Source: Hyphomicrobium zavarzinii ATCC 27496
GTDB taxonomy: Bacteria; Pseudomonadota; Alphaproteobacteria; Rhizobiales; Hyphomicrobiaceae
DNA: 64,000 bases
Assembly: GCF_000383415.1 (NCBI RefSeq)
Contig: NZ_KB911258.1
Coordinates: forward strand, 206,267 to 270,266
Direction: 5' to 3'
In this document: piece by piece, positions 42,723 to 62,681 of the stretch
Numbering within the stretch: position 1 is the stretch's first letter
Layout of the letters: every line of letters starts with the position of its first letter
Translations under genes and position numbers: made by a program
Notes under the pieces: generated by a model
Told to the model about the DNA's origin: nothing
The model's input: the letters and a program-made list of their open reading frames with translations, nothing else
The model's database searches: none

Positions 42723-42888
42723 TAGTTGAGGTGCGGTGTCCGTGCGCAGCGATACTTTGCGGCGCGCAGGCTGCCGTGTGGCAATTGTGCCGCTTCAACG
42801 CGCATAATGCTTCAAAAAAAAGTATACAATCTTGCGAGTGTAACATCCCTCGATAGAGTACCCTCCGTAGTCTTGAAAGGGGATATGG

Positions 42889-48016: not shown

Positions 48017-48742
48017 TCACGCGAAGTCGGCCGAGATGAGAAACTCGGCCAGCTCGAAGCGCCAGTCCTGCCTGTCGTAGGCGAAGGGCTCGCCGTCCGC
48101 GTCGAACATCGTCTGCGTGAGCGCGATGTTCGGCGAGCCCTTGGCGACACCGAGCACGCTCGCATCCTCATCGGAGAGAAACGCGCCCCGCAGCGTGGCA
48201 TCGGCGTGGCCTACGGAGATGCCGTACGTATCCTCCCACAGCGAGAGGATCGATCCGGTGAGCGTGTGAGAGAAGAAATCGGGAAAGCGCGCGCATCCGA
48301 GATACATCGTTTCGATGGCCGCAGGCTTGCCGCCAAGCTGCAGCAGGCGGCGCACGAAATAGGCGTCCTCGTTTCTCCTGAGCTTCAAGGGCTCGCGGGC
48401 GAACTCCGGCGGAATGACCTTCTCGGCGTGCAGCAGCACAGAGCCGGCCTCTTTGCCGCGCACGGCCGCGCTGTTGATGAAGCTCACCGATTTCATGAGC
48501 GCGAATTGCAGGCGCGCTTCCGAGACGAACCAGCCGCGCCGGTGCGAGCGCGAGACGAGCCCTTCGCTTTCGAGCCGCTCGTAGATGCGCCGCGCGGTCA
48601 TGCGGCTGATGTTGCGCACATCGCCGAGTTCGCGCTCCGAAGGCAACCGCGTGCCGGGCGCAAGCGCACCGGATCTGATCTGGCCTGCGATGTCGTCGCA
48701 GATCACCTTGATGATCGGAACGGATTGTACCTCACTGGTCAA
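48017..48742 (-). CDS. GntR-family regulator (HutC/UTRA type)
   Basis: A 241-residue repressor: an N-terminal winged helix (IIKVICDDIAGQIRSGALAP, RLPSERELGDVRNISRMTARRIYERLESEGLV, about residues 9-65) and a UTRA ligand-binding domain (from about 80, ending WRFELAEFLIS). Such proteins are released from DNA by small metabolites. It is the third gene behind DMGDH-like 2 and the kinase on the minus strand, with a 173-nt gap that may hold its own promoter (AGTAGTATATCT at about 48777-48788 resembles a half operator). The paired TGGTNTATACCA sites are its probable targets. Confidence 0.88.
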   Translation of the reverse strand: MTSEVQSVPIIKVICDDIAGQIRSGALAPGTRLPSERELGDVRNISRMTARRIYERLESEGLVSRSHRRGWFVSEARLQFALMKSVSFINSAAVRGKEAGSVLLHAEKVIPPEFAREPLKLRRNEDAYFVRRLLQLGGKPAAIETMYLGCARFPDFFSHTLTGSILSLWEDTYGISVGHADATLRGAFLSDEDASVLGVAKGSPNIALTQTMFDADGEPFAYDRQDWRFELAEFLISADFA

Positions 48743-48915: not shown

Positions 48916-49869
48916 CTACCCGCGAACGCGGTCGATGTGCTTGCCGAAATCAGGACTTTCCATGATTTCTTTGCACCGGTTGAAGCGGTCCATCGTGTAC
49001 TGCCAGAAGTCGTCGAAGGGATAGTGGATGTCGGAGGGCTTGAGCGGGTTCTTGTTGGCCACCTGCAGCGCGCCCCAAAGGGTCCACAGCAGAAACACCA
49101 TGGCCTTCTGCAGGATCATGCGGCTGTAGAGCTTGTCGGAGAATTCGCCCTTGTTGTAGGCGGTGAGCATGGCGCGATCCTGCGCCTCGTCGAAGTAGGC
49201 TTCGACGGAGAGGTCCCCGAGATCCCACATGGGATCGTTGCTGCCCGCGAACTCCCAATCCAGCAGATAGAGCTTGCTCGGCGTGTTGATGAAGTTCTCC
49301 GGAACCGGATCGTTGTGGCTCGGAACCAGCGGCAGCGCACCCTTCTTGAGCGCATCGCGAACCACGAGCGCTTCCTTCTGCATGACGTCGTAGCCGTCTG
49401 GAAAGCGGCCGCCCATCTGCTTCAGAACGTCGAGATACTCCTTGGCTTTCTCGACGTCGTTGAACTCCTGGTGGAAGGTGGCCCCGGAGCGATGAAGCGT
49501 GCCGAACACCGCGCCCGCTCGCGCGCAGATCGTCAGGTCCTTGAACAAGGCGGGCGTCATCATGGTGGCGCCTTCGATGTAGCGGGTGAGCTGGACGCCT
49601 GTGCCAGCCTCGTAGAATACGAGCTCCGCATTGACGCCAAGCTCGGAGGTCAGCCGGCCGGCCTGCTCGTCCGCGCGCCGGTCGACGTACTGCTCCGTGC
49701 CTTCGCCCGGAACGCGCAGCACATAGGAATTGCCTCCCGCAGTCACTTTGTAGTTGCGATTAGTGAGGCCGCCGACCTTCAGGATCTGGATGTCCTCGGG
49801 CCGAAACGTGCGCAGTTGCGGCACGCGCGCCAACGTCGCTTGCAGACGTGTGGTCTCTGAAGTCTCCAT
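48916..49869 (-). CDS. Choline/aminoglycoside-kinase-like phosphotransferase 1
   Basis: A 317-residue kinase of the APH/choline-kinase fold. The nucleotide loop GGLTNRNYKVTAGGNSYVLRVPG lies at about residues 33-55, the Brenner-type catalytic motif is SHNDPVPENF (about 206-215), and the metal motif is YLLDWEFAGSNDPMWDL. GGGGAAA precedes the start. It is 17 nt after DMGDH-like 2. Phosphorylation of choline, ethanolamine or a related alcohol is expected from the family; the true substrate is unknown. It is paralogous to the kinase at 57286. Confidence 0.88.
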   Translation of the reverse strand: METSETTRLQATLARVPQLRTFRPEDIQILKVGGLTNRNYKVTAGGNSYVLRVPGEGTEQYVDRRADEQAGRLTSELGVNAELVFYEAGTGVQLTRYIEGATMMTPALFKDLTICARAGAVFGTLHRSGATFHQEFNDVEKAKEYLDVLKQMGGRFPDGYDVMQKEALVVRDALKKGALPLVPSHNDPVPENFINTPSKLYLLDWEFAGSNDPMWDLGDLSVEAYFDEAQDRAMLTAYNKGEFSDKLYSRMILQKAMVFLLWTLWGALQVANKNPLKPSDIHYPFDDFWQYTMDRFNRCKEIMESPDFGKHIDRVRG

Positions 49870-49886
49870 GTCATTTCCCCGTTTCT

Positions 49887-52280
49887 CTAGATTTCTTTTA
49901 GAAGGTCGCGTTTCGTGGTGCGTAGCAGCGGGCTCAGCTCGCCGAAGCTCTCGATTTCGAAAGTGCCTGACGAAACCAGCGCGGCGGGCACGTAGGCGTT
50001 CACCGCCGTCTTGCCGATGGAATGGGCAAAAGCCGCGCTCGTCGTGGCCCCGATGATCTCGCCGTTGGCGTAGACGGCCTCGCCGCCGAACGCGTTGCCG
50101 AGGCTCCCTGCGATGAACGTTGAGAGCCGCCGCGACGGTCCTTCGGCTTTTATCTTGCGGAGCGCGGCCTGCGAGAGGAAGGGATCCCGATCGAGATCGA
50201 CACAGAAGCCGAGACCGGCTTCGTAAGGGTTGCAGTCGGGCGTGATGTCACTGCCCCAATACCGGTAGCCCTTCTCGATCCTGAGGGAGTCGAGCGCGCG
50301 ATAGCCCACGTTGCGCAGGCCAAACGGCTTCCCGGCTTCCATCAGGCGCTCGTAAACATCGCAGGCAAACTCGGCCGGGATGTGCAACTCCCATCCCGCC
50401 TCGCCAGCGAAGCTGATGGGCAGCGCGCGAACGGAGGCCGCGCCGATCACGATATGGCTGAGATCACGCCCGTTGAGCGCGCTTTCGTAGGTGTCGATGG
50501 CGACAGTGACGATGTCGGGCGCCTTGGGGCCTGTCACCAGCAGCACGGACCAGGCGGACGTCACATCCTCGATCGTGAAGCGCGCGTTGGCCGGGGCGTT
50601 GGCGCGGATCCATTCGATGTCGCGCGTGCCGTTGCCGGTGCCGGTCACGTAGTAGAAGCGATCGTCCGAAAGCCGCGTGATCGAGACGTCGGCCTCGATG
50701 CCGCCCCGCTTGCTGCAAAGCTGCGTGTAGCTCACGGTCCCGGCGGGCTTGTCGAGGTTGCGAACCGAGAGGTATTGCAGCGCGCCGAGAGCGCCGGGCC
50801 CGTGGATCTCGTATTTCGCGAACGAGGTGAGATCCAGGATGCCCGCGTTGTTGCGGACGGCGTGGTGCTCCTCCGCGACCGTCGAAAACCAGTTTGGACG
50901 GTCGAAGCTCGGCCGGTCCTCGGTCTCGCCGCGGGTCGCAAACCAGTTCGGCCGTTCCCAGCCGAACTTCGCGCCATAGATGGCTCCGCGTTGCTTGAGC
51001 AGCGGATAGAGCGGGCTTTTGCGCAGCCCGCGGGCGGATGTGTGCTCGTAGCCCGGAGGCTGCAGGCGATAATGCGCCCCGTACACTTCGATGGCACGGG
51101 GGTAGATATAGGACTTGGTGCCGTGATGGGCGCCGAACCGCCGCGCATCTACCGGCCAGAGATCCAGCGAAGGTTGTCCCTCCAGAATCCATTCGGCCAT
51201 CACCTTGCCGATGCCGCCTCCCGCGGCGATGCCGACGACACAACCCGAGGCGACGAACGCGTTGTCGAGCCCCGGGATCGGTCCCATCACGAAGTCGCCA
51301 TCGGCCGAGAACGGGATCGGCCCGGTGACGAAGTCGCGGATGCCGATCTTGCCGAGAACGGGCGTTCGCTTCATCGCAGCTTCGATGAACGGCTCGAAGC
51401 GATCCATGGCGGGCGGCAGCAGCTCCTGCCCGAAAGCGCTGGGAATGGGCTCAGCGTCGAAGGTGGCTGTGTTGGGCTCCCAGCAGCCGAACACCAAGCC
51501 GTTGGTTTCCGGCTTGTAGTAGATCGAGAGGTCCGGATCGCGTACTGAAGGCATGCTGGAGTTGATGCCCTCGATCGGCTCCGTGATAAGATACTGGTGA
51601 ACCAGCCCGCAGCAGGCGAGGTTCACCTGCATCAGCTTGCCGATCTCGCGCGCCCACACACCCGCCGCGTTCACGACGATGCGGCACGTGAGATCGCCCT
51701 GTGTCGTGCGCACCTGCGTGAGGCGCCGGTCTTTCCGTTCGAACCCGGTCACGGCGGCGTGCTGGATGATCCTGGCGCCGTGCTTGCGGGCGCCGGCCGC
51801 GAAGGACAGCGTGAGGCTCGTGGGATCCGCGACGCCGTCTCCAGGAACATAGAGCGCGCCGAGAATATCCCTCGTTTCCGCGATGGGAAACAAGTTGCGG
51901 ACTTCCTCGGGGCTGATGATATCGGCTTCGAGGCCGACGCTCTTGGCGATGGTGTTGGAACGCTTCGCCTCGAGCAGGCGCTCGGCGTTCGAGACCAGCC
52001 TCAAGCTGCCGGTTCGCCGCCAGCCCGACGCGAGCCCGGTCTCAGCTTCGAGTGTCTCGTAGATCTCCACACTCGATTGCAGCATGCGGCTCAGATTGCG
52101 GGAGGCGCGCAATTGCCCGACCATGCCCGCAGCATGCCAGGTCGAGCCGTGTGTCAGCTCGTTCTTTTCGAGCAGGACGACGTCCTTCGCGCCTGCCTTC
52201 GCCAGATGATAGGCGATCGATGTGCCGAGAACGCCGCCGCCGATCACGACGATGTCCGCTTGGGAAGGAAACGCTGTCAT
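49887..52280 (-). CDS. Dimethylglycine/sarcosine dehydrogenase-like flavoprotein 2 (DAO + GcvT)
   Basis: A 797-residue paralogue of the enzyme at 45553. The FAD loop is IVVIGGGVLGTSIAYHL and the covalent-flavin His49 lies in HGSTWHAAGMVGQ. GWERPNWF and a second RPNWF occur at about residues 440-465, followed by a GcvT domain (KRGGIEADVSITRL, GEAGWELHIPAEF). GGAG lies upstream of the ATG, and the tandem operators at 52300-52328 sit just before it. It forms an operon with kinase 1 and the GntR gene. Confidence 0.88.
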   Translation of the reverse strand: MTAFPSQADIVVIGGGVLGTSIAYHLAKAGAKDVVLLEKNELTHGSTWHAAGMVGQLRASRNLSRMLQSSVEIYETLEAETGLASGWRRTGSLRLVSNAERLLEAKRSNTIAKSVGLEADIISPEEVRNLFPIAETRDILGALYVPGDGVADPTSLTLSFAAGARKHGARIIQHAAVTGFERKDRRLTQVRTTQGDLTCRIVVNAAGVWAREIGKLMQVNLACCGLVHQYLITEPIEGINSSMPSVRDPDLSIYYKPETNGLVFGCWEPNTATFDAEPIPSAFGQELLPPAMDRFEPFIEAAMKRTPVLGKIGIRDFVTGPIPFSADGDFVMGPIPGLDNAFVASGCVVGIAAGGGIGKVMAEWILEGQPSLDLWPVDARRFGAHHGTKSYIYPRAIEVYGAHYRLQPPGYEHTSARGLRKSPLYPLLKQRGAIYGAKFGWERPNWFATRGETEDRPSFDRPNWFSTVAEEHHAVRNNAGILDLTSFAKYEIHGPGALGALQYLSVRNLDKPAGTVSYTQLCSKRGGIEADVSITRLSDDRFYYVTGTGNGTRDIEWIRANAPANARFTIEDVTSAWSVLLVTGPKAPDIVTVAIDTYESALNGRDLSHIVIGAASVRALPISFAGEAGWELHIPAEFACDVYERLMEAGKPFGLRNVGYRALDSLRIEKGYRYWGSDITPDCNPYEAGLGFCVDLDRDPFLSQAALRKIKAEGPSRRLSTFIAGSLGNAFGGEAVYANGEIIGATTSAAFAHSIGKTAVNAYVPAALVSSGTFEIESFGELSPLLRTTKRDLLKEI

Positions 52281-52299
52281 TGCTTGGCTCCGGAATGCC

Positions 52300-52328
52300 T
52301 GGTGTATACCAGATTCTGGTCTATACCA
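52300..52328 (-). promoter_or_regulatory. Tandem operators for the GntR regulator, upstream of DMGDH-like gene 2
   Basis: TGGTGTATACCA (52300-52311) and TGGTCTATACCA (52317-52328), 5 bp apart, 19 nt before the start at 52280. Together with 45496-45521 they define the consensus TGGTNTATACCA. Confidence 0.72.
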
Positions 52329-52398
52329 TCACAATCAAAACGCCATTGCAAGACGGCATCGATCGTATTTGTTCTGAAATTCGATGGCTCAAAGAAAT

Positions 52399-52450
52399 TT
52401 TCGCATTTAGCAAATGCGAAATGCTTCATTTATGCGCTGAAGCATAAATG
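52399..52450. promoter_or_regulatory. Cluster of AT-rich palindromes upstream of DMGDH-like operon 2
   Basis: TTTCGCATTT-AGC-AAATGCGAAA is a perfect 10-bp inverted repeat (52399-52421). It is followed by CATTTATGC-6 nt-GCATAAATG (52427-52450), and a nested TGCTTC/GAAGCA pair overlaps it. They lie 119-170 nt upstream of the start at 52280 and are much lower in GC than the surroundings. A second regulator, perhaps the GlxA-like protein at 54462, could bind here; this is inference. The rest of the 416-nt gap holds two hairpins and no gene. Confidence 0.5.
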
Positions 52451-52577
52451 ATCTGCATAATAGTGAAGCATGGAATCGCGCTGCGGTGCGGGATTTGTCG
52501 AGCACACCCGAAAAGTGAGCGTGCATAAGGTGCGAGCCTCGGCTCGCTCAAAGATAAAAAAGTATAAGTCGGGTTTT

Positions 52578-52610
52578 GAGCGGGGGGCATGGGAACATTG
52601 CCCCCCGCTC
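52578..52610 (-). terminator. GC-rich hairpin downstream of the outer-membrane barrel gene (distal)
   Basis: A perfect 12-bp stem (52578-52589 with 52599-52610) with a 9-nt loop. Neither strand has a clear T run after it, so termination strength is uncertain. Confidence 0.5.
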
Positions 52611-52638
52611 GTTCGTCTGGGGATGGACCCCGCGCGTT

Positions 52639-52664
52639 GAGCGGCCGTGGGAGATCGGCCGCTC
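52639..52664 (-). terminator. GC-rich hairpin downstream of the outer-membrane barrel gene (proximal)
   Basis: A 9-bp stem GAGCGGCCG/CGGCCGCTC with an 8-nt loop, 32 nt after the barrel stop on the minus strand. With the next hairpin it probably ends that transcript. Confidence 0.5.
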
Positions 52665-52696
52665 AAAGGTGAGAAGAATGCGGTGTTGCCCGCGGA

Positions 52697-54154
52697 TCAG
52701 TAGGTCAAGATGCCGATAATCTGGAAGTTGTGCACGGTGTCGTCCGTGCCGTAGGCAGCCTCGTAGCCCTTTTCGGGGAGCAGCACGCTGTAGAGTGGCG
52801 CGAGGTAGAGTTTCTCGAAAATCTGGAACTCCGCATATGCGGCAAGCTCGGTACCCCAATTGCTGTCGGTGCCGGGCGCTGTCTCACGGACTGAGTAGTG
52901 GTTGATATAGCCGCTGAGCCCCGTCCATTTTCCGATGCCGATGTCGATGTTGGGAACCGTCGAAAGGCCGATCGAGTGAACGTCCGCGTTCTGGCTGAAA
53001 GGGCCGGAATAGTTGGCTGCGATCTCGCCGATGAACCAGCCGTTGTAGCCAGTCGCGCCGTAGAAGAGCGTATCGTAGCCTTCATTCTTCGCGGTTGTCG
53101 GATCGTCGCCGGAGTAGCTGGCGAACCGGTAGTAGACGCTCGGCGTCCAGGTCGCATCGGAGAACGTATAGCTCGGCTTGATGTACCAGGCCCAAGCGTC
53201 AAGCCCCTGGCATTGAACCGGAGTGGCGCAGACATCGACCGCGCCGCTCTTCTCGCTCACGTAATTGAAGGACAGGTTGAAGTCCTTCACGCCTAGGCTC
53301 GAGTTGCCGTGAATGCTGTAGAGGTTCATGCCGTCCGAAGCCGGCGTGAACGGCAGCACGGTATTCTGGGGATCCTGCACGTCGAGGCCGCGAATGTAAG
53401 TAAAACCCAGTGTTCCGTAAGTTTTGTCGACGTAATCGACATTGCCGCCTGCGATCGCGCGCTTGCCGTTCCAGCCCTTCTCGGATTCGATGTAGAACGC
53501 ATCGAAGCGCAAAGGCGTGCCGGTCTCTATGTTGGCGATCGCGGTTTGGCCGAACACGCGGCGCGGGTTGAGGTAGTAGGCGCCGCCCTCGTTGTACTGT
53601 GCGCCGTAGCCGATGCCCGAGCTCGGCTGATCGCCCGCGATCAGGAAGCCGTCTCCCAGCACCCACTTCTGCCGGCCGCCCGAAAGAGTGATACTCGCGC
53701 CGCCCTCGCGGCCATCCGTCCATTTCACGCCGCCCGAAGCGTCCTGGAGTTGCGCGCCGTCCTCCTCGCCGATCGTGGACGCAATCGCGTCGCCGTCGCC
53801 GCGCACACCGTTGACCACGCCTGTCAGCGTGCCGAAGACCGACCAGTTCGCGTTCAAGGCACGCTCGAACTTGAAGCCCATGATGGCGTAGCCCTCGGCC
53901 CACGCCACATCGTCGAGAGGTTTGCGATTTGCGAGGCCGAACAGGTTGTAGTCCTGTGAGACGTTGAAGCCGCCAAAGCCGATCTCAGCCGTGAATTCGA
54001 CGATCGTGCCGTGCGCCTTGTAGATTTCGACCGCCGAAGCGATCGGCGCCGCATAGAGTCCACCCGCCGTGACGAGCAAAGCCGCGCCGCTCGCTTTCAA
54101 AGCGCGCCGCAAGGCTTTCATGGACGAAGAATGGCGAAGATCGGAAGCCTTCAT
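52697..54154 (-). CDS. Outer-membrane beta-barrel protein (porin-like, alginate-export type layout)
   Basis: A 485-residue protein with a long signal region (MKASDLRHSSSMKALRRALK, then ASGAALLVTAGGLYAAPIASA) and a mature part of alternating aromatic strands, ending HNFQIIGILTY with a terminal aromatic residue as for outer-membrane barrels. I cannot name a precise family; it resembles the alginate-export/porin group. GGGGGGAC precedes ATG 54154; ATG 54121 is an alternative. Its place between two methylamine operons suggests a diffusion channel for their substrates. Confidence 0.75.
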   Translation of the reverse strand: MKASDLRHSSSMKALRRALKASGAALLVTAGGLYAAPIASAVEIYKAHGTIVEFTAEIGFGGFNVSQDYNLFGLANRKPLDDVAWAEGYAIMGFKFERALNANWSVFGTLTGVVNGVRGDGDAIASTIGEEDGAQLQDASGGVKWTDGREGGASITLSGGRQKWVLGDGFLIAGDQPSSGIGYGAQYNEGGAYYLNPRRVFGQTAIANIETGTPLRFDAFYIESEKGWNGKRAIAGGNVDYVDKTYGTLGFTYIRGLDVQDPQNTVLPFTPASDGMNLYSIHGNSSLGVKDFNLSFNYVSEKSGAVDVCATPVQCQGLDAWAWYIKPSYTFSDATWTPSVYYRFASYSGDDPTTAKNEGYDTLFYGATGYNGWFIGEIAANYSGPFSQNADVHSIGLSTVPNIDIGIGKWTGLSGYINHYSVRETAPGTDSNWGTELAAYAEFQIFEKLYLAPLYSVLLPEKGYEAAYGTDDTVHNFQIIGILTY

Positions 54155-54461
54155 TGTAGTCCCCCCAGTTCTGGTCTGGCGTGCGGCCGGTGAAGCGCAC
54201 GGAAGATGAGCCATCAAAAACGAGGAGGGCATTCGCGCTTCTCGTTTCTGGGAGAAACATGCCTCAACACGGCGCGAGCTGATAATCTCAGAGCGACGTA
54301 TTGTTGGCTTTGAGCGACATGGAATGAAAAATAGAGGACTGTTGCATTTGTGAAACATTTTGTATTTGAGGCGGAATGAAGTCGTGAAAATGCAAGGCGC
54401 GAGCGAGGGAATGTCGCGGCCGTTCTGGTTTGGCGAATTTTGGCGTCGAATTCGGGGGTAT
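54155..54461. other. Promoter region of the outer-membrane barrel gene
   Basis: A 307-nt gap behind the barrel gene start. Around 54340-54395 it is AT-rich and has a widely spaced inverted pair, TTGCATTT (54342-54349) and AAATGCAA (about 54387-54394), sharing GCATTT with the palindromes at 52399-52450. No ORF is supported. Confidence 0.4.
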
Positions 54462-55517
54462 CTAAGGTGCGTATCGCCGGTTTTGCGCGACCCGATAGGG
54501 TTCAACGGCCGTCGTCGACGAAGATCCTTTTGCGCCCCGCTCCCCGTCTAGCTTCTGCTTTCTTTCGCCGCTCGGCGTGACGCCATAGAACGCCTTGTAC
54601 GATCTGCTGAAGTGCCCTGGAGATTCGAAGCCGCAGGCCACGGAGATTTGCGTGATGGAGAGGGGAGTCTGGAAGATCAATTCCCGCGCGCGCTTGAGAC
54701 GCAAGCTGAGATAGTGCTTCGTCGGGGTCGTTCCGAGCGAGTCCTGGAAGATCCGCTGCGCCTGGCGAAGCGAAATGCCGGCCAGCCGCGCGAGCTCCGT
54801 GAGCGGCAGGACTTCCTCGAGGTTCGTTTCCATGAGCGACACGATCTCAATCAGCGCCATGTGCTCCAGCCCGAACCGCCGCGCCGTCGCGATCTTGTCG
54901 TGGGGATCCCGATCCCGCGCCTTCTCGGCGGCGAGGCGATCGGAGATTTCGACAGCGCGCTCGTAGCCGAAGCCGCTGGCGACGAGGGACAGCATCAGGT
55001 GGATGGGCGCGATGCCGCCCGTGCACGTGATGCGGTTGCGATCGATCACAAAGGGAGAGTCCTGGATCGTGATATGCGGATAGGTCTGACGCACGAGTTC
55101 CGCGTCGTCCCGATCGATTGCGCACTTGTAGCCGTCGAGCAGACCGGCCTCCGCAAGAGCATAGGTGCCCCCGCTCAACCCGCCGAGCACCACGCCGTCG
55201 CGCTCGATCTGGCGCAGGAGCGCGAGCACGGCGTCGTCGAAATGAGCCGGGCGCTTGGCGCCGCCGCAGACCAGAACGACATCGAGCTTCCCGGCGTCCG
55301 GATAGCTCACGGCGCGCGCTTGGGTCAGTCCGTCACCCGCGTAGGCGGTGCGCCCCGAAGGCGTGATGACGGACCACGCGTAGTCCTCCTTCTGCGAGAT
55401 CTGGTTCGCCATCCGCAGCACCTCGATCGCGCACGAGAGGGCGACCATGGTGAAATCGTTCAGGGCGAGAAAGCCGATCCGGCGGATGGCGCGGAGCGTG
55501 GTTCGAGTTCGTTCCAT
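54462..55517 (-). CDS. GlxA-family AraC-type regulator (GbdR-like)
   Basis: A 351-residue activator. The N-terminal part is a DJ-1/PfpI-like amidotransferase-fold sensor (RIGFLALNDFTMVALSCAIEVLRMAN, VVLVCGGAKRPAHFDD) and the C-terminal part has two AraC helix-turn-helix motifs (LPLTELARLAGISLRQAQRIF and SITQISVACGFESPGHFSRSYKAFYGVTP, about residues 240-315). GbdR, which senses glycine betaine and dimethylglycine, has this architecture. It is the last gene of the importer-DMGDH-ETF operon and so is likely its regulator; the name is not certain. Confidence 0.85.
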   Translation of the reverse strand: MERTRTTLRAIRRIGFLALNDFTMVALSCAIEVLRMANQISQKEDYAWSVITPSGRTAYAGDGLTQARAVSYPDAGKLDVVLVCGGAKRPAHFDDAVLALLRQIERDGVVLGGLSGGTYALAEAGLLDGYKCAIDRDDAELVRQTYPHITIQDSPFVIDRNRITCTGGIAPIHLMLSLVASGFGYERAVEISDRLAAEKARDRDPHDKIATARRFGLEHMALIEIVSLMETNLEEVLPLTELARLAGISLRQAQRIFQDSLGTTPTKHYLSLRLKRARELIFQTPLSITQISVACGFESPGHFSRSYKAFYGVTPSGERKQKLDGERGAKGSSSTTAVEPYRVAQNRRYAP

Positions 55518-55533
55518 CGGGAATCTCGCTCGG

Positions 55534-56463
55534 TCACAGCGCCTCTTTGAACTGCGGCAGAACCTCGAACAAATCTGCCACGAGGCCGTAGTCTGCCACC
55601 TGGAAGATCGGCGCCTCCGCGTCCTTGTTGATTGCGACGATGATCTTCGAATCCTTCATGCCCGCGAGATGCTGGATCGCGCCCGAGATGCCGCACGCGA
55701 TGTAGAGGTGGGGCGCCACCACTTTGCCGGTCTGGCCCACCTGCCAGTCATTCGGCGCATATCCGGCATCGACGGCCGCGCGCGAGGCGCCGACCGCGGC
55801 GCCGAGCTTGTCGGCCACGGGCAGGATGACTTCCTTGAACTTTTCGGCCGAGCCGAGCGCACGGCCTCCCGAGATGACGATTTTGGCCGAGGTCAGCTCC
55901 GGCCGGTCGGACGTCGCAATCGCATCGCGGACGAACTTCGAGAGACCCGGATCTGGCGCGGCTGTGATGGTTTCGACGGGAGCGGACCCGCCCTCCGGCG
56001 CGGACGCGAACGCAGCGGACCGCACCGTGATCACCTTCTTCGCATCCGTCGTCTGCACGGTCTGGATGGCGTTGCCCGCATAGACGGGCCGCTTGAAGGT
56101 ATCCGCCGACTGGACCTCGATGATCTCGGAGACCTGGGCCACGTCGAGTAGCGCCGCCACGCGCGGCATCACGTTCTTGCCGACGGACGTCGCGGCCGAG
56201 ATCAGCGTGTCGTATCCGCCCGAAAGCGAAACGATGAGAGCGGCGAGGGGCTCTGCAAGGTTGTTTGCGAGCGTGTCGCTCTCGGCCAAGAGAACTTTTG
56301 TGACGCCGGAAAGCTTCGCGGCAGCTTCGGCCGCCGCCTTGGCGTTCTTGCCCGCGACCAGCACGTGCACGTCGCGCCCGATCTGGAGGGCGGCGGTCAG
56401 CGCCTTGGCGGTCTGCTCCGAAAGAGCGGTATTGTCGTGATCAGCCAGCAGGAGGATGGCCAT
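55534..56463 (-). CDS. etfA: Electron transfer flavoprotein alpha subunit
   Basis: A 309-residue ETF alpha subunit starting [22 protein letters not shown], with the C-terminal FAD domain ([84 protein letters not shown]). It takes electrons from the flavin dehydrogenase encoded upstream and passes them to the quinone pool through ETF-QO, which is not in the window. Sixteen nt separate it from the regulator gene. Confidence 0.96.
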
Positions 56464-56486
56464 GGCTTCGCATTCCCTTTCTTGAG

Positions 56487-57236
56487 CTAGAGGACGCCGG
56501 GCTCGGCACGGAGCTTGTCGATCAGCTCGGCCACGGACTTCACCTTGATGCCGACCTTGCGCGTGCTCGGCTCTTCCGTACGCAGCACCTTGAGGCGGGC
56601 CGCCGTCGAGACGCCGTAGTCAGCTGGGGTCTTCTTCTCGAGCGGCTTCTTCTTCGCCTTCATGATGCTCGGAAGCGAGGCATAGCGCGGCTCGTTGAGG
56701 CGCAGATCGACGGTGACGACCGCGGGCAACTCGATCTCGATCGTCTGCAACCCGCCGTCGACCTCGCGCGTGACCGCAGCCTTCCCGCCCTCGAGCTCCA
56801 CTTTCGAGGCGAATGTCGCTTGCGCCCGCCCCATCAGCGCAGCCAGCATCTGGCCCGTCTGGTTCGAGTCGTCGTCGATGGCCTGCTTCCCGACGATGAC
56901 GAGGCCGGGGCCTTCGGCGTCCACGACACCCTTAAGGATCTTCGCCACCGCCAGCGGCTCGACGCTATCGTCCGTCTCGACCAGGATCGCGCGGTCGGCA
57001 CCCATCGCGAGGGCGGAGCGGAGCGTCTCCTCGGCCTTGGCAGGTCCGATGGAGACCGCGATCACCTCCGCGGCCTTCCCGGCCTCCTTCAGCTTCAGCG
57101 CCTCCTCCATGGAGATCTCGTCGAACGGGTTCATCGACATCTTGACGTTGGAGAGATCCACGCCCGAACCGTCCGGATTCACGCGGATCCTCACGTTGAA
57201 GTCGACCACCCGCTTCACGGGCACCAGAATTTTCAT
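56487..57236 (-). CDS. etfB: Electron transfer flavoprotein beta subunit
   Basis: A 249-residue ETF beta subunit: [20 protein letters not shown] at the start, the [38 protein letters not shown] segment, and the AMP-binding [28 protein letters not shown] lies upstream of the start. It sits between kinase 2 and etfA in the same operon, which supports a dedicated ETF for the demethylase. Confidence 0.96.
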
Positions 57237-57285
57237 AGTCGAAGGTCCTCAAGTGTAGAGCTGCTCGTAGGCGCGCAGGGGAGCG

Positions 57286-58242
57286 TCAGCTCCCCTTGCG
57301 CACGGCCTCCAGAAGCTTGCCGAAATTGTCTGCGTTCATGATTTCCTGGCAGCGCACGAAGCGATCCATCGCGTAGTCCCAGTAGCTCTTGAAGTGATAG
57401 GCGGGACGCGGGTTCTTGTTCGCCTCTTGCAGAACGCCCCACAGCGTCCACAGCAGGAACACCATGGATTTGTGCAGCACGATGCGCCCGTATTCGGAAA
57501 GCGTGGGCTCCCGGCCGAGGTAGGCCGTCAGCAGAATGCGGTCCTGCTCCTCGGAGAAATTCGTCTCGACGGCGAGATCGGCGAGATCCCAGAACGCGTC
57601 GTTGTTACCGGCGAACTCCCAGTCGAGAATGTGCACGCGCTTTCCCGTGTCGATCAGGTTCTCGGGCGCGGGATCATTGTGGCAGGCCACGTGCTCGGTG
57701 CAGGCCTTGGCAAGCGCTTCGCGGATCGTGTCGGCTTCCCGCTGCACGCGGTCATAGCCTTCGGGAAGTGGCGAATTCTTCCCGCGCAAAAGATCGAGAT
57801 AGCTCTGGGCGATGACCTTCTCGTCGAACCTGTTGCGGAATTTCGCGCCGCTCGTGTGAAGCTTGTGGAACGCGAGGGCGGCGCGGCGAACCGCATCGGG
57901 ATCTTTGAACACCGTGGCATTCATCGTCACGCCGTTCTCGATGAGCTTGGTGATCATCACGCCGGTTGCCGAGTCGTAGTAGACGAGCGGGGCGTTCACA
58001 CCGAGATCCGACGTGATGCGGCTCGCCTGCTCGTCCGCCTTCCGGTCCACGTATTCTTCAGTGCCCTCGCCCGGAATGCGCACCACGTAGTTCACATCCG
58101 AGACCGTCACCCGGTAGTTCCGGTTCGTCATGCCGCCGAGCAGCTCGATGGCGACATCCCCGGGGCGCACGCTGCCGCCCGAGATCACCGAGGCCGCGAT
58201 CTCGCGCGCACGTTTCTGTCTGTCGATTTCCTGCGTATCCAT
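57286..58242 (-). CDS. Choline/aminoglycoside-kinase-like phosphotransferase 2
   Basis: A 318-residue paralogue of the kinase at 48916, alike over the full length: GGMTNRNYRVTVSDVNYVVRIPGEGTEEYVDRKADEQ, the catalytic ACHNDPAPENLID and VHILDWEFAGNNDAFWDL. It has the same short C-terminal helix (MDRFVRCQEIMNADNFGKLL). It lies 17 nt after DMGDH-like 3, the same spacing as in the other pair, and 49 nt before etfB. The substrate is not known. Confidence 0.88.
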   Translation of the reverse strand: MDTQEIDRQKRAREIAASVISGGSVRPGDVAIELLGGMTNRNYRVTVSDVNYVVRIPGEGTEEYVDRKADEQASRITSDLGVNAPLVYYDSATGVMITKLIENGVTMNATVFKDPDAVRRAALAFHKLHTSGAKFRNRFDEKVIAQSYLDLLRGKNSPLPEGYDRVQREADTIREALAKACTEHVACHNDPAPENLIDTGKRVHILDWEFAGNNDAFWDLADLAVETNFSEEQDRILLTAYLGREPTLSEYGRIVLHKSMVFLLWTLWGVLQEANKNPRPAYHFKSYWDYAMDRFVRCQEIMNADNFGKLLEAVRKGS

Positions 58243-58259
58243 CCCTGTTTCCTCACGTC

Positions 58260-60671
58260 TCAGGCGTTGATCTTAAGTCCTTCGGGATCGTAGAGCGGCT
58301 TTGCCGCGCGCTTGGCGCCATAGACTTCGCCGTACACCTCGACCTCGTAGGTGTCGTGCTCGGCCTCCTCGGCTGCCACGTAACCGTAGACGATAGGCGC
58401 GCCGACCGTATGTCCGTAGTCCGCGCTCGTGGTGACGCCGAGCACCTTGCCGTTGCGCAGGATCGCCTCGCCGCCGTTGACAGGAGCCTTGCCGTCGAGC
58501 GCCAGGATGCAGAGTTTGCGATCGGGTCCGGACGCGGCAATCTTCTTCAGGGCTGCGTTCCCCTTGAAGTCGCCCTTGGTCTTGGGAATGAGCCAGTCCA
58601 TTCCGCAGTGATAGGGCGAGTAGTCGGGAGAGATATCGCTCGCCCAGAGCAGATAGCCTTTTTCCATGCGCAGGCTGTTGAGCGCGCGGTAGCCGAAGTT
58701 GGAGAGGCCGAACTCCGCGCCCGCTTCCCGCAGAACGTGATAGACGTGCAGCGCATACTCGGTCGGAATGTGCAGCTCGTATCCGAGCTCACCCGTGAAC
58801 GAGACGCGCATAGCCCGCACGGGGGCCGCGCCCACGGTGAGCGCCTTCATCTGCCCATAGGGGAAGGCCGCGGCGCCTACATCCTCTTCCGCCACCTTCG
58901 CCAGAACGGCGCGCGATTTCGGGCCGCAAAGGTTGATCACCGCATAGCCGGAGGTGACGTCGACGGTGCGCACCGAGCCGTCGTCCGGCAGATGACGGTG
59001 GATCCAGCCGAAATCGTGCTCGCCATAGGCGGTGCCGGTCACGGCGTAGAAGCGGTCCTCCTCCAGGCGGCAGAAGGTCATGTCCGCCTCGATGCCGCCC
59101 CGCTCGTTGAGGAGCTGGGTATGAATGAGGCTGCCCACCGGCTGGTCCATGTCCGCAACCGCGAGCTGCTGCAGCGAAGAGAGCGTGTTCCGGCCGAAAA
59201 GCTCCATCTTGGCGAACGAGGAGAGGTCGATCATCGCCACGCCCTCGCGCACCTGCTTGTGCTCGTTGGCCACGTGCTCGAACCAGTTGGGCCAGTCGAA
59301 CGAGGGCTTGTCGACAGGCTCGACGCCAGCTGGCGCAAACCAGTTCGCGCGCTCCCATCCGGCGCGCGATCCGAAAACCGCGCGCTGCTCCTTCAGCGGG
59401 TAGTAGAGCGGCGAGCAGCGGATGTTGCGGACGGACTCGTGTTCCTCGACCGGCCACTTCATCGCGTAGTGCTTGGCGTAGATCTCGATGGCACGGTCGT
59501 ACATGAAGTACTTGGTGTTGTGGTGGAAGTTGAAGCGCCGCACATCGAGAGGCCACAGGTTGTTGGCCGGCCGCCCTTCCATAATCCACTCCGCCATCAC
59601 CGAGCCCGCGCCGCCGGCTGCGGCGATGCCGTAGATGAACCCGCACGACACGAACACGTTATCGAATTCGGAGACGCCGCCCATGACGAAGTCGCCGTCT
59701 GCCGAAATGGGGATGGCGCCGTTGATCATCGCGCGCACGCCGACGGTTCCGACGACGGGAGTCCGCTTCGCCGCATTGAGCGCCAGTTGCTCGAAGCGCT
59801 CGTAATTCTCCTGGAGGAGCTGCTGGTCCCAGCCCCTGGGAATGCCGTCGCGGGCGAAGGCCGGGGTGTTGGGCTCGTAGCCGCCCACCACGATGCCGCG
59901 CACCTCTGGCTTCCAGTAGAGCAGAAGATCCGGATCGCGCACCGTTGGCATGCCCTTCGGCAGATCGGGGATGGGGTCCGTGATCAGATACTGATGCTCG
60001 ACCGCGAAGGCCGGCACGCGGCATCCCATCAGCTTGCCGAGCTCGTGCCCCCACATGCCGGCAGTGTTCACCACCGTTTCAGCCCGAATGGGACCCTTGC
60101 TGGTCTGCACCTCGACGATGCGGCGTCCCTCCGCCTTGAACCCCGTCACCTCGCAGTTCTGGATGAACTTGACGCCACGCTGGCGTGCGCCCGCGGCCAG
60201 CGCCTGGCAGAGGCTTGCCGGATCGACGTAGCCGTCCGAGTCGATGAACGTCGCGCCTTCCACGCCGTCCAGCGTCATGATCGGAAACAGGTCCTGCGCC
60301 TCCTTCGGCGTCAGGAGCTGCATATCGAGGCCGAACGACTTGGCGGTCGTGGCGGAGCGGCGGAACTCCTTCATGCGGTCCTTGGAGGACGCGATGCGCA
60401 GGCTGCCGACTTTCTTCCAGTCGATGGGCTGGCCGGTTTCCTTCTCGAGCACATCATAGAGCGCGATGCTCTTCTGCAGCATGCGCGTGACGTTGCGCGA
60501 AGGGCGGAGCTGTCCCACCACGCCGGCTGCGTGCCATGTCGCGCCGTGCGTCAACTGAAACTGTTCCAGCACGACGATGTCGGTCTTGCCTGCCTTCGCG
60601 AGGTGGTAGGCAATGCTGCAGCCGATCACCCCGCCTCCGATGATCACGATTTCTGCGGCATCAACTGTCAT
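58260..60671 (-). CDS. Dimethylglycine/sarcosine dehydrogenase-like flavoprotein 3 (DAO + GcvT)
   Basis: An 803-residue paralogue of the enzymes at 45553 and 49887. The FAD loop is IVIIGGGVIGCSIAYHL, the covalent-flavin His47 lies in HGATWHAAGVVGQ, GWERANWF is at about residue 440, and the GcvT domain contains ERGGIEADMTFCRL and GELGYELHIPTEY. ATG 60671 has GAGGA upstream; an ATG 3 codons earlier is less likely. It lies in one operon with ETF and the betaine-type importer, making a betaine/dimethylglycine substrate most plausible for this copy. Confidence 0.9.
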   Translation of the reverse strand: MTVDAAEIVIIGGGVIGCSIAYHLAKAGKTDIVVLEQFQLTHGATWHAAGVVGQLRPSRNVTRMLQKSIALYDVLEKETGQPIDWKKVGSLRIASSKDRMKEFRRSATTAKSFGLDMQLLTPKEAQDLFPIMTLDGVEGATFIDSDGYVDPASLCQALAAGARQRGVKFIQNCEVTGFKAEGRRIVEVQTSKGPIRAETVVNTAGMWGHELGKLMGCRVPAFAVEHQYLITDPIPDLPKGMPTVRDPDLLLYWKPEVRGIVVGGYEPNTPAFARDGIPRGWDQQLLQENYERFEQLALNAAKRTPVVGTVGVRAMINGAIPISADGDFVMGGVSEFDNVFVSCGFIYGIAAAGGAGSVMAEWIMEGRPANNLWPLDVRRFNFHHNTKYFMYDRAIEIYAKHYAMKWPVEEHESVRNIRCSPLYYPLKEQRAVFGSRAGWERANWFAPAGVEPVDKPSFDWPNWFEHVANEHKQVREGVAMIDLSSFAKMELFGRNTLSSLQQLAVADMDQPVGSLIHTQLLNERGGIEADMTFCRLEEDRFYAVTGTAYGEHDFGWIHRHLPDDGSVRTVDVTSGYAVINLCGPKSRAVLAKVAEEDVGAAAFPYGQMKALTVGAAPVRAMRVSFTGELGYELHIPTEYALHVYHVLREAGAEFGLSNFGYRALNSLRMEKGYLLWASDISPDYSPYHCGMDWLIPKTKGDFKGNAALKKIAASGPDRKLCILALDGKAPVNGGEAILRNGKVLGVTTSADYGHTVGAPIVYGYVAAEEAEHDTYEVEVYGEVYGAKRAAKPLYDPEGLKINA

Positions 60672-60725
60672 TCTGAGCAATCCTCTTTGCGTGCTTCGTT
60701 AGATGATGTGGACGATCCGGACCGC

Positions 60726-62681
60726 CTACGCGGCTCCCGCCGTCGTGGTGTGTTGCAGGCGGCTCGCGCCGGCGCGGAACATGCGATCGATCAAGATTCC
60801 TAGGAAGGCGAGGCACAGTCCGGCCACGAGCCCCCGTCCCGGATTTGCGGTGGTGAGCGCGATGTAGACCTCCTGGCCGAGATCGCGCGTGCCGACGAGC
60901 GCTGTGATCACCACCATCGCCAGTGCGAACAGGATCGCCTGGTTGATGCCGAGAAGAATGGTCGGAAGCGCAACCGGAAGCCGGATGAGCCGGTCGAGTT
61001 GGAATCTGGAGCATCCCATGGACTGTCCGGCTTCGACGAGATCGGAAGGTACAGTCCTGAGCGCGGTCATCGTGAACTTCACGATGGGCGTGATGGCGAA
61101 CGCGACGATGGCGAGAAGCGCTGCGAAATCGCCGACGCGGAACAGCATCACAACGGGAATGAGGTAGACGAAGCTCGGCAACGTTTGCAGAAGCTCGACC
61201 GCCACGTTGGCCGCGCGGTAGAGCGCATCGTAGCGCGCGGCCGCAACCGCCAGCGGAATGCCGATCAGCGCCGAAACCACCGTCGCCGACAGGCAGAGAT
61301 AGAGCGTGATCATCACCTTGTCCCAGAGGCCGGTGACGAGGCAGAAGCCGAGCACCAGCACGCTGAGAAGCGCCAAGCGGAGCCCTGCGATGAAATAGGC
61401 TGCGAGCGTGACGAGACCGGCGAGCACCAGCCACGGCATGTCCGCCAGAAAAAACTTGATCGGGTTCATGAGGTTCTTCAGCGTGAAGATGCGGAGAGCC
61501 TCCATCGCGTCGAAGAAATTGACGTTGATCCAGCTCACGGTCGCATTCAGCACGCCGCCCGTGGAAAGACGCAGCGCATCGGGGAATTTGGCGAGCCATT
61601 CGATCCACACGCCGGCCAGGGTCGCAGCCAAAAGCCAGCCGAGGGGGAGAATCAACGATTGCCCCCAGCCCGGCGCCTGCTCCACATCGGGGCGCGCACG
61701 ATTGGCGACCGCCGCGCCGAGGCGGTCGAGCATGATGGCGATCACGACGATGGCCGTTCCCGAGACGAAGCCGCGATCGATGTCGAGCTGGCGCAGGGCG
61801 CGCAGCACGTCGAAGCCGAGCCCGCCCGCGCCGATCATCGAGGCGATGATCACCATGTTGAGCGTCATCATCACGGTCTGGTTCAGGCCGACCAGCAGCA
61901 TCGGTCGCGCCGACGGCAGGAGAATGCGCCAGATCGCCTGACGCTTGGAGCAGCCGATCATCGTGGCAAGCTCGCGGATCTCCTGCGGAGCCTGATCGAG
62001 CACCAGCGCGGTGACGCGTGCCATTGGCGGCATCGCGAAAATGACGGTCGCGATCATCGCGGCAACGGGGCCGAAGCCAAACAGAAGGAGCGTCGGAATG
62101 AGGTAGGCGAAGGCGGGCACCGTCTGCATGATGTCGAGGCCCGGCGTCAGCAGCCACGTGTTTACGCTCGGCCGCGCATGCGCGAGCACGCCCACGAGGA
62201 GACCGGTGATGACGGCGATGGGTACGCAAACCAGAACCGATGCCAGCGTCAGCATCGCGCCGTCCCATTGCCCGAACAGAAGCAGGTAGGCGCATCCGGC
62301 CGCTTGCAGCGCTGCGAGGCGAAAGCCGCTGGCCCAGTATCCGGCCCACACCAGGAGTCCCGAGAGACCGAGCCAGGACAGCGCGGGCAGCTCGATGTGG
62401 GTCTCTCCGATGTTGAACGCGAAGCCCTTGACGAGGAGCGCAGTCACGAGGTCGAGCGGCAGCTGCACCACCGAGGCCAGCGCGCGCGTCACCGGCGAGA
62501 TGTGGGACACGATGTATTTGAGCCACGTGGTGATCACGTCGTCGATCGGCAGCTTCCACGCGGCGGGATAGCTCGCCGTCCACGGGACCAGCGACGAGAC
62601 GGCGCTCAGTGCGGCAAGCATCGCCGCAGCCGCCCAGAGCCGTTTGTCGCGCAGAACTGTCAGGGTCGCGGCTCCCCTCAT
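60726..62681 (-). CDS. proW: Double-domain ABC permease of the glycine betaine/proline type (ProW-ProW fusion)
   Basis: A 651-residue inner-membrane protein made of two permease halves. Each half has an EAA-type loop: EIRELATMIGCSKRQAIWRILLPSARPMLLVGLN (about residues 225-258) and DLVEAGQSMGCSRFQLDRLIRLPVALPTILLGIN (about 545-580), and each has a PAFAYLIPTLLLFGFG or PSFVYLIPVVMLFRVG helix. Most ProW proteins have one such domain. It overlaps the ATPase gene by 4 nt. It would serve import of glycine betaine or a related quaternary amine. Confidence 0.9.
   Translation of the reverse strand: MRGAATLTVLRDKRLWAAAAMLAALSAVSSLVPWTASYPAAWKLPIDDVITTWLKYIVSHISPVTRALASVVQLPLDLVTALLVKGFAFNIGETHIELPALSWLGLSGLLVWAGYWASGFRLAALQAAGCAYLLLFGQWDGAMLTLASVLVCVPIAVITGLLVGVLAHARPSVNTWLLTPGLDIMQTVPAFAYLIPTLLLFGFGPVAAMIATVIFAMPPMARVTALVLDQAPQEIRELATMIGCSKRQAIWRILLPSARPMLLVGLNQTVMMTLNMVIIASMIGAGGLGFDVLRALRQLDIDRGFVSGTAIVVIAIMLDRLGAAVANRARPDVEQAPGWGQSLILPLGWLLAATLAGVWIEWLAKFPDALRLSTGGVLNATVSWINVNFFDAMEALRIFTLKNLMNPIKFFLADMPWLVLAGLVTLAAYFIAGLRLALLSVLVLGFCLVTGLWDKVMITLYLCLSATVVSALIGIPLAVAAARYDALYRAANVAVELLQTLPSFVYLIPVVMLFRVGDFAALLAIVAFAITPIVKFTMTALRTVPSDLVEAGQSMGCSRFQLDRLIRLPVALPTILLGINQAILFALAMVVITALVGTRDLGQEVYIALTTANPGRGLVAGLCLAFLGILIDRMFRAGASRLQHTTTAGAA

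Follow-up and report, generated by a model that had tools for sequence, protein, structure and literature searches.

A stretch of 64,000 nucleotides from the genome of Hyphomicrobium zavarzinii ATCC 27496 (contig NZ_KB911258.1, positions 206,267 to 270,266), here called the window and numbered from its first letter, contains two gene pairs, each made up of a gene for a choline/ethanolamine-kinase-like phosphotransferase and a gene for a demethylase resembling dimethylglycine dehydrogenase (DMGDH). A preliminary description of this DNA had placed both kinases 17 nt downstream of a covalent-FAD/GcvT demethylase, in the same order, and this arrangement was borne out: all four genes are intact open reading frames (ORFs) on the minus strand, and exactly 17 nt separate the demethylase stop codon from the kinase ATG in both pairs. 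We lean toward the view that each pair is a step unit in the catabolism of a small N-methylated amino alcohol, in which O-phosphorylation would be followed by oxidative demethylation. The four genes are as follows.

48916..49869, minus strand: K1, choline/ethanolamine-kinase-like phosphotransferase of subfamily KA (Pfam PF01636, 65.2 bits; PF01633, 60.6 bits)
49887..52280, minus strand: D1, DMGDH-like FAD/GcvT demethylase (Pfam DAO, FAO_M, GCV_T, GCV_T_C), 17 nt upstream of K1
57286..58242, minus strand: K2, choline/ethanolamine-kinase-like phosphotransferase of subfamily KA (Pfam Choline_kinase, 63.5 bits; LicA, 1.1e-35; structure entry 3dxq, 5.5e-69)
58260..60671, minus strand: D2, DMGDH-like FAD/GcvT demethylase (Pfam DAO-FAO_M-GCV_T-GCV_T_C), 17 nt upstream of K2

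The start of D2 is taken as the ATG at 60671; the ORF list gives an upstream TTG at 60680. The two kinases are 50% identical and the two demethylases 48% identical, which indicates that the paralogy of the pairs is old.

Conservation of the kinase-demethylase pairs

The pairs had been described as two copies, and the genome in fact holds five, of two kinds; a search of the genome with K2 returned five kinases, each with its demethylase. Past the end of the window and on the same strand (L035), a ProX-like binding protein is followed by D3 and K3, with genes for a DeoR regulator and a HAD hydrolase in divergent orientation to them. Contig C10 carries D4-K4 with a complete ATP-binding cassette (ABC) importer, a DeoR regulator, a HisN-like phosphatase, and D5-K5. 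The kinases fall into subfamily KA, with K1, K2, and K5 (39 to 50% identical among themselves), and subfamily KB, with K3 and K4 (36% identical to each other and 25 to 29% to KA). The five kinase-linked demethylases show 43 to 58% mutual identity.

The pair is conserved well beyond this strain; its absence elsewhere had been named in the preliminary description as an outcome that would refute the idea. When a genome collection was scanned with the KA alignment, at least 590 stretches matched and at least 560 of them encoded a relative. We mapped the best 80 loci of those at least 560, picked by kinase similarity with the neighbors ignored; 78 could be assessed for a demethylase, the other two having less than 800 nt upstream. 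A demethylase was found in the stretch at 66 of the 78, ending within 150 nt upstream of the KA match in 49, within 2 kb in 8, and elsewhere in the stretch in 9. Carriers of the KA family were mostly Proteobacteria among the matches listed. In a draw of 289 genomes from the same class, 44 had some match to K2 and 12 had a match above 200 bits; the strict KA family is widespread yet sparse. Plasmid annotations go no further than calling the kinase a phosphotransferase or choline/ethanolamine kinase family protein and the demethylase an FAD-dependent oxidoreductase.

Neighborhood maps were made for 87 stretches, comprising the 80 loci, three stretches from H. zavarzinii itself, and four plasmid stretches. 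The recurrent order was substrate-binding protein, ATPase, permease, KB, demethylase, demethylase, KA, with DeoR adjoining; the clusters for the substrate-binding protein, the permease, and DeoR were present in 40, 42, and 31 of the 87 stretches, respectively. Either unit may also stand alone, as DeoR-demethylase-KA does in L039, L098, and L100 and KB-demethylase in L142, L143, and L145. Of 54 KA pairs, 52 had a demethylase of the D1/D2/D5 type, while 29 of 31 KB pairs had one of the other type, a contrast with a Fisher P value of 4.5e-18 in which types were assigned by best BLAST seed and the loci are not independent. Gene order was equally regular, with demethylase-KA in 53 of 54 pairs and KB-demethylase in all 31. 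The kinase and demethylase distance matrices of 49 KA pairs correlated with an r of 0.55, the maximum of 2,000 permutations being 0.27, although shared ancestry alone could produce part of this correlation. On the basis of the linkage in KA loci, the partner-type specificity, and the covariation of distances, a functional link between kinase and demethylase is strongly supported. The earlier suggestion that the pairs act on one substrate is too simple, KA and KB differing in both binding residues and partner.

Conserved residues of the kinases and demethylases

The choline-kinase-like and DMGDH-like identities assigned earlier held up, with Pfam matches above cut-off, the fold of K2, and the nearest solved relatives of D2 all in agreement. 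Both K1 and K2 matched the Pfam APH and Choline_kinase families above cut-off. An AlphaFold2 model of K2, built on an alignment of 35 sequences, had a mean confidence score (pLDDT) of 94.5. In a Foldseek search with this model, the best match was 3dxq_A (TM scores 0.86/0.92), followed by LicA, 4r7b_B (0.76/0.84); Protein Data Bank matches 1 to 48 were choline or ethanolamine kinases by title, and a macrolide phosphotransferase came only at rank 49.

In the reported structure of LicA with choline, Tyr197, Trp251, Trp254, Tyr268, Val178, and Glu213 hold the amine, while Thr29 and Asp176 hold the hydroxyl (PMC4364537). We mapped these positions through a phmmer alignment, with a numbering shift of 20 residues inferred from motifs, onto 87 KA sequences that included K1, K2, and K5. 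Glu213 and Trp251 were kept in 87 of 87, Trp254 in 86, and an aromatic residue at Tyr197 in 87; at the hydroxyl-binding positions, Asp176 was present in 87 and Thr29 in 85. The equivalents of Asp176, Asn181, Asp194, Glu213, Trp251, and Trp254 were each retained in 86 or 87 of the 87. Val178 was replaced by Leu in 69 of 87, and Tyr268 was unmapped, the alignment ending before it. The KB cage is altered, with Asn at Glu213 in 31 of 32 sequences and Glu at Trp251 in 32 of 32. Since the choline cage is kept and the fold matches are to choline kinases, the likeliest ligand of KA is a small ammonium alcohol, methylated or free, and that of KB a related compound.

Among solved proteins, D2 is nearest to human and rat DMGDH (about 1e-153) and to the Arthrobacter dimethylglycine oxidase, with end-to-end alignment. 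The His of the TWHAAG segment and a His/Tyr pair, at the positions of His225 and Tyr259 of the oxidase, were invariant in 10 aligned proteins; H50, H229, and Y255 (P0005 numbering) line up with the corresponding residues of DMGDH and the oxidase. The His/Tyr dyad and the histidyl-FAD link are reported to matter in the DMGDH family, whose members use acidic N-methyl compounds (PMC5082570). Among 10 window proteins scanned, none matched an MttB-type family, and the linked demethylase is of the DAO-GcvT type.

Genomic surroundings of the pairs

The following other genes of the two window operons and their flanks bear on function.

45553..47997, plus strand: D6, DMGDH-like gene without a kinase, adjoining the GntR gene (Pfam DAO/FAO_M/GCV_T/GCV_T_C)
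48017..48742, minus strand: GntR/UTRA regulator downstream of K1 (Pfam GntR and UTRA; best NCBIfam model PhnR, 143.7 bits, below the cut-off of 296.75)
54462..55517, minus strand: GbdR-like AraC/DJ-1 regulator (NCBIfam GbdR, 310.5 bits, under the cut-off of 480)
55534..56463, minus strand: EtfA (Pfam ETF and ETF_alpha)
56487..57236, minus strand: EtfB, electron acceptor subunit (Pfam ETF, 142 bits), 49 nt downstream of K2
60726..62681, minus strand: ABC permease of the choline/betaine type with two permease domains, lying 54 nt upstream of D2 (TIGR03416 choXWV permease, 394.3 bits against a cut-off of 363)
62678..63730, minus strand: ABC ATPase of the ProV type (TIGR01186 proV, 329 bits; cut-off, 326.6)

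Downstream of K2, the successive gaps to EtfB, EtfA, and the GbdR-like regulator are 49, 23, and 16 nt. The two operons are separated by an ORF (52697-54505, minus strand, start uncertain) that had no Pfam match at 1e-5 and appears by eye to be outer-membrane protein-like. Genes for a PepSY-TM protein and a TonB-dependent receptor lie upstream of D6 (41805-45222, plus strand), with no evident link to the module. A D6-type gene with a GntR neighbor also occurs in Mesorhizobium tianshanense (L048), there with FolD upstream.

Microcompartment genes adjoin the module in the closest relative of K1/D1 and in some near relatives of K2/D2, though not in the very closest one of the latter. K1 and D1 are 83 and 81% identical to a pair in M. 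tianshanense that lies beside a microcompartment locus. The gene order there begins with FolD, a D6-type demethylase, GntR, KB, a substrate-binding protein, a D1-type demethylase, and KA, continues with EtfB, EtfA, ATPase, permease, and DeoR, and ends with a class-III pyridoxal phosphate (PLP) enzyme, an acylating aldehyde dehydrogenase, and a bacterial microcompartment (BMC) shell. K2 and D2 are 61 to 63% and 75 to 76% identical to pairs in Tabrizicola, Defluviimonas, and Pseudogemmobacter (L043 to L045). In the first two of these, genes for the same PLP enzyme, the aldehyde dehydrogenase, and the shell likewise come after the KA operon, with a DeoR-type ORF, recognized by eye, between the KA operon and the PLP enzyme group in Tabrizicola; the L045 stretch contains no PLP enzyme, aldehyde dehydrogenase, or BMC group. 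BMC genes were present in four of nine genomes examined, which were chosen and not random; they adjoin the module in three (G289, G290, and G291) and lie on another contig in the fourth. The aldehyde dehydrogenase was nearest to AdhE-type and acetylating acetaldehyde dehydrogenase models, under their cut-offs.

Class-III PLP enzymes include ethanolamine-phosphate phospho-lyase, and the enzyme found here is a candidate for this activity. Two plasmids carry homologs of it (80 to 82% identical), accompanied by a peptide ABC importer and a gene of the alkaline phosphatase family. An RMM-type kinase and a short-chain dehydrogenase/reductase (SDR) were found in Tabrizicola and in the gammaproteobacterium whose BMC genes are on another contig. 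The two M. tianshanense stretches examined yielded no RMM-type kinase, so that KA and KB are the sole candidates seen there for making an amino-alcohol phosphate. Near the M. tianshanense microcompartment genes is a gene for a Na/Pi-cotransporter with PhoU domains (L127:10933-12582, minus strand) that could handle phosphate freed by a phospho-lyase.

A second recurrent context is a phosphatase gene, which three queries detected in 12 of the 80 loci (HisN-like in 7, HAD types in 4 and 2, with one locus shared). We also inspected eight annotated plasmid stretches with KB and a demethylase, leaving out one further stretch that lacks gene annotation. An inositol-monophosphatase-family gene was in or beside the operon in two of the eight (Ruegeria and Salipiger); the HisN-like phosphatase of Salipiger scored 233.6 bits against the histidinol-phosphatase HisN model TIGR02067 (cut-off, 275.15), and that of H. 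zavarzinii itself fell just under the same cut-off at 270.4 bits. In one of the eight, from Nitratireductor, an EutH gene above its curated cut-off lies beside KB and the demethylase. An EutH-like ORF 64% identical to it adjoins DeoR-demethylase-KA in Leisingera (L101), the only one in the 87 stretches.

One-carbon and electron partners were also found. In the window, in a metagenome-assembled genome (MAG; L042), and in L048, the genes after KA are EtfB and EtfA. The Salipiger plasmid stretch has EtfB, an FAD-binding protein in the place of EtfA, FolD, and PurU, and a metal/formaldehyde-sensitive repressor lies directly downstream in three of the eight plasmid stretches (two from Shinella and one from Roseateles). 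Taken with the phosphatase and EutH genes, these partners fit a methyl group leaving as methylene-folate or formaldehyde together with an ethanolamine-like product. The preliminary description had also raised a kinase acting on the C1 carrier. We saw no folate link specific to the kinase, FolD and PurU being found in demethylase operons, and set that idea aside, although it was not tested directly.

Other observations concern relatives of the module. Plasmid pRi1724 (L040, 9760-14501) has two tandem kinases, nearest the KA seed yet only about 32% identical to K2, with HisN, DeoR, a peptide-type ABC importer, and a Zn-dependent hydrolase; there is no demethylase in that group, and EutB is at the edge of the stretch. 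In Salipiger (L145:15196-16870) and Shinella (L041:1-2924), a glutamine-synthetase-family gene and an N-formylglutamate amidohydrolase gene lie near the module. The best model for the Shinella glutamine-synthetase-family gene was gamma-glutamylputrescine synthetase, under cut-off, and a gamma-glutamyl route for the amine product is possible. In Ruegeria sp. AD91A (L039:15605-23774), genes for a cyclase-domain protein and a family-1 encapsulin are just downstream of demethylase-KA.

The H. zavarzinii genome had no PF00936 match for BMC shell genes. It does contain EutB and EutC genes, at C2. Matches to the class-III PLP enzyme reached only 24 to 33% identity; a phospho-lyase was therefore rejected for this genome, and the phosphatase route is preferred there. 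The genome also encodes a trimethylamine N-oxide (TMAO) demethylase on a contig other than that of the window (C7:131913-134204, L122; 1,207 bits against a cut-off of 1,100), and H. zavarzinii probably uses methylated amines by that known route as well.

Proposed pathway, alternatives, and relation to known systems

The most likely substrates are N,N-dimethylethanolamine and N-methylethanolamine. The amine would enter through a choline/betaine-type ABC importer, and the kinase would phosphorylate its hydroxyl with ATP. The phosphate could then serve the DMGDH-like enzyme as an acidic group in place of the dimethylglycine carboxylate usual in the family. The FAD would draw two electrons from an N-methyl group and pass them on to EtfAB, while the GcvT part would load the methylene onto tetrahydrofolate. 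KA and KB, with their own demethylase types, would serve two methylation states or two substrates. A HisN-like or HAD phosphatase would convert the demethylated phospho-product to ethanolamine; in some relatives, the class-III PLP enzyme would instead split it, giving acetaldehyde inside a microcompartment. An N-methyl-ethanolamine route of phosphorylation and demethylation had been proposed from the outset, and it is the best reading given the cage residues and the BMC, phosphatase, and EutH contexts; what the analysis shows directly is the gene content, the pairing, its conservation, and the residues, from which we infer the substrate, the order of phosphorylation before demethylation, and the roles of the phospho-lyase and the phosphatase. 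More tentatively, the module could represent a widespread phosphorylation-gated oxidative N-demethylation, in which two units turn phospho-dimethylethanolamine stepwise into phosphoethanolamine and, in some members, feed a microcompartment via the phospho-lyase.

Several observations weigh against this proposal. The demethylase was absent from the stretch in 12 of the 78 assessable loci, several of these stretches being short, and from 2 of the 12 phosphatase loci (L064 and L069). A BMC context was seen in only 3 of 80 loci. The L042 pair, the very closest relative of K2/D2 (74/84% identical), lies in a stretch without the PLP enzyme, dehydrogenase, or shell genes, and no BMC match was found in its genome. 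The class-III PLP enzyme best resembles putrescine aminotransferase and is just 23% identical to the RHA1 BMC aminotransferase. EutB was present in 1 of the 12 class genomes with a K2 match above 200 bits, compared with 23 of the 277 others; without such co-occurrence, EutBC cannot be the general outlet, and we keep it as a possibility for H. zavarzinii only. An S-adenosylmethionine (SAM) methyltransferase gene lies beside KA or one gene away in 9 of 80 loci for the c6 type and 9 of 80 for the c8 type, and additionally in L065, L069, and L097, a setting that suits synthesis of choline at those loci better than its degradation. Two Spirochaetes have the order methyltransferase-KA-HAD with no demethylase, as would be expected for choline synthesis through phosphoethanolamine. 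In light of these methyltransferases and the Spirochaetes loci, KA is not always catabolic, although a role in synthesis would still favor ethanolamine-type substrates. Were phosphorylation the first step and the phosphate retained, a single kinase should suffice for both demethylations; because one unit occurs alone in some stretches, the KA and KB units may take different entry compounds, each of which could be dephosphorylated. Finally, the GbdR-like regulator points to betaine or dimethylglycine.

A small SAM methyltransferase gene on the opposite strand was also seen beside KA in L077, L078, L088, L090, L099, L108, L117 to L119, and L041, several of them in Rhizobiaceae. Its product could oppose or accompany demethylation.

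Among the alternatives, the steps might run in the reverse order, the demethylases using free methylated ethanolamines and the kinases phosphorylating the wholly or partly demethylated product, which would then be cleaved or act as a regulatory signal. The kinase gene does follow the demethylase gene in 53 of 54 KA pairs, and the phospho-lyase and phosphatase contexts require only a phosphorylated end product. We nevertheless consider this order unlikely: KB precedes its demethylase in 31 of 31 pairs, KA retains a cage known from choline binding, DMGDH relatives are reported to use acidic N-methyl compounds whereas the free alcohol is not acidic (PMC5082570), and the analogous pathway of Eubacterium limosum is described as phosphorylating first (PMC12155760). 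A different small hydroxylated N-methyl amine, such as an N-methylated 1-amino-2-propanol, is a similarly unlikely substrate. In Tabrizicola, the module adjoins an RMM-like BMC with an SDR and an APH-type kinase of its own, and RMM loci have been proposed to serve amino-alcohol use (PMC4207490), yet EutH adjoins both KB/demethylase and KA/demethylase units, the cage and transporter are of the choline type, and the two M. tianshanense stretches contain no RMM-type kinase.

It is rather improbable that the demethylases act on dimethylglycine and sarcosine in a betaine route while the kinase, as a bystander, makes phosphocholine for lipids or signaling. The GbdR-like regulator, the choline-type permease, DMGDH as the nearest solved enzyme, and the methyltransferases adjoining some KA genes agree with such a route; the strict pairing and covariation of kinase and demethylase types and the phosphatase and BMC contexts argue against it, as does the fact that no choline or betaine-aldehyde dehydrogenase is named in the eight annotated plasmid stretches, whose gene tables are incomplete and of which L041 includes a single GMC-family oxidoreductase in a group of sugar genes. 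Least probable by far is a kinase that phosphorylates an amine N-oxide, for example TMAO, at its oxygen, since the cage and fold are those of choline kinases, the contexts indicate amino alcohols, and the TMAO demethylase is on another contig, even though the best NCBIfam model was the N-oxide kinase NF041256 (GntI; 122.8 and 149.3 bits, far under 357), the importer binding protein is nearest to 4xz6, and that TMAO demethylase exceeds its cut-off.

Phosphorylation followed by demethylation of methylated ethanolamines, the route we favor, would be of some consequence. Methylated ethanolamines derive from choline and phospholipid head groups, and anaerobic choline demethylation is reported to leave dimethylethanolamine (PMC12155760). 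If the proposal is true, a function would be assigned to two enzyme groups and a microcompartment type, which, together with the phospho-lyase link, would constitute a metabolosome of a new kind, for methylated ethanolamines. Among the open-license PubMed Central papers listed, judged on titles and the starts of abstracts, none described an oxidative route for these compounds in bacteria, and "undescribed" is accordingly provisional; the kinase/demethylase pair was likewise not named there.

Known systems share parts of the module. The importer resembles the TmoXWV type, its binding protein having 4xz6, which we take to be TmoX, as nearest match (2.5e-71). As in RMM microcompartments, which are reported as probable sites of amino-alcohol degradation with a phosphotransferase in the locus (PMC4207490), relatives of the module combine an amino-alcohol-type kinase, a class-III PLP enzyme, an aldehyde dehydrogenase, and shell proteins; unlike them, H. 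zavarzinii has no BMC shell match, KA and KB are another kinase group, and a demethylase is added. KA shares with LicA-type choline kinases the fold and most of the mapped choline-binding residues, whereas KB has Asn and Glu at the Glu213 and Trp251 positions, and LicA is described as serving cell-wall phosphorylcholine (PMC4364537), while the kinase of the module lies in a likely catabolic operon. The closest structure, 3dxq, is a Mesorhizobium loti protein described in the same source as biochemically uncharacterized (PMC4364537).

We know of no kinase partner for DMGDH. Oxidative demethylation of the FAD/GcvT type chemically requires a tertiary or secondary amine. The demethylases of the module resemble DMGDH in domain order, the His of covalent-FAD type, and the His/Tyr dyad (PMC5082570), and ETF genes lie beside some pairs; their substrate would be expected to differ from dimethylglycine.

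The nearest precedent is the MthK/MthB/MthC/MthA system of E. limosum, reported in 2025, in which MthK phosphorylates choline and MthB takes phosphocholine and not choline (PMC12155760). Both systems would combine a choline kinase that shares motifs with LicA, phosphorylation of an N-methyl amino alcohol, an adjoining demethylase gene, and methyl transfer to tetrahydrofolate; unlike the FAD/GcvT/ETF oxidative demethylase proposed here, that system is described as working in anaerobes through corrinoid chemistry, with a quaternary amine as methyl donor (PMC12155760). The route had been put forward as apparently new, and this report supplies a precedent for it in corrinoid chemistry. Its authors suggest that phosphorylation yields an acidic quaternary amine resembling the carboxylated substrates of MthB relatives (PMC12155760), and the same acidic-group argument would fit DMGDH relatives, which act on dimethylglycine and sarcosine. 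If the proposal holds, phosphorylation was recruited with both corrinoid and flavin chemistry, making a choline-like alcohol acceptable to demethylases of acidic N-methyl compounds. In this view, whose main line has support though not proof, the module is a flavin/folate counterpart of the corrinoid phosphocholine principle, present in many genomes.

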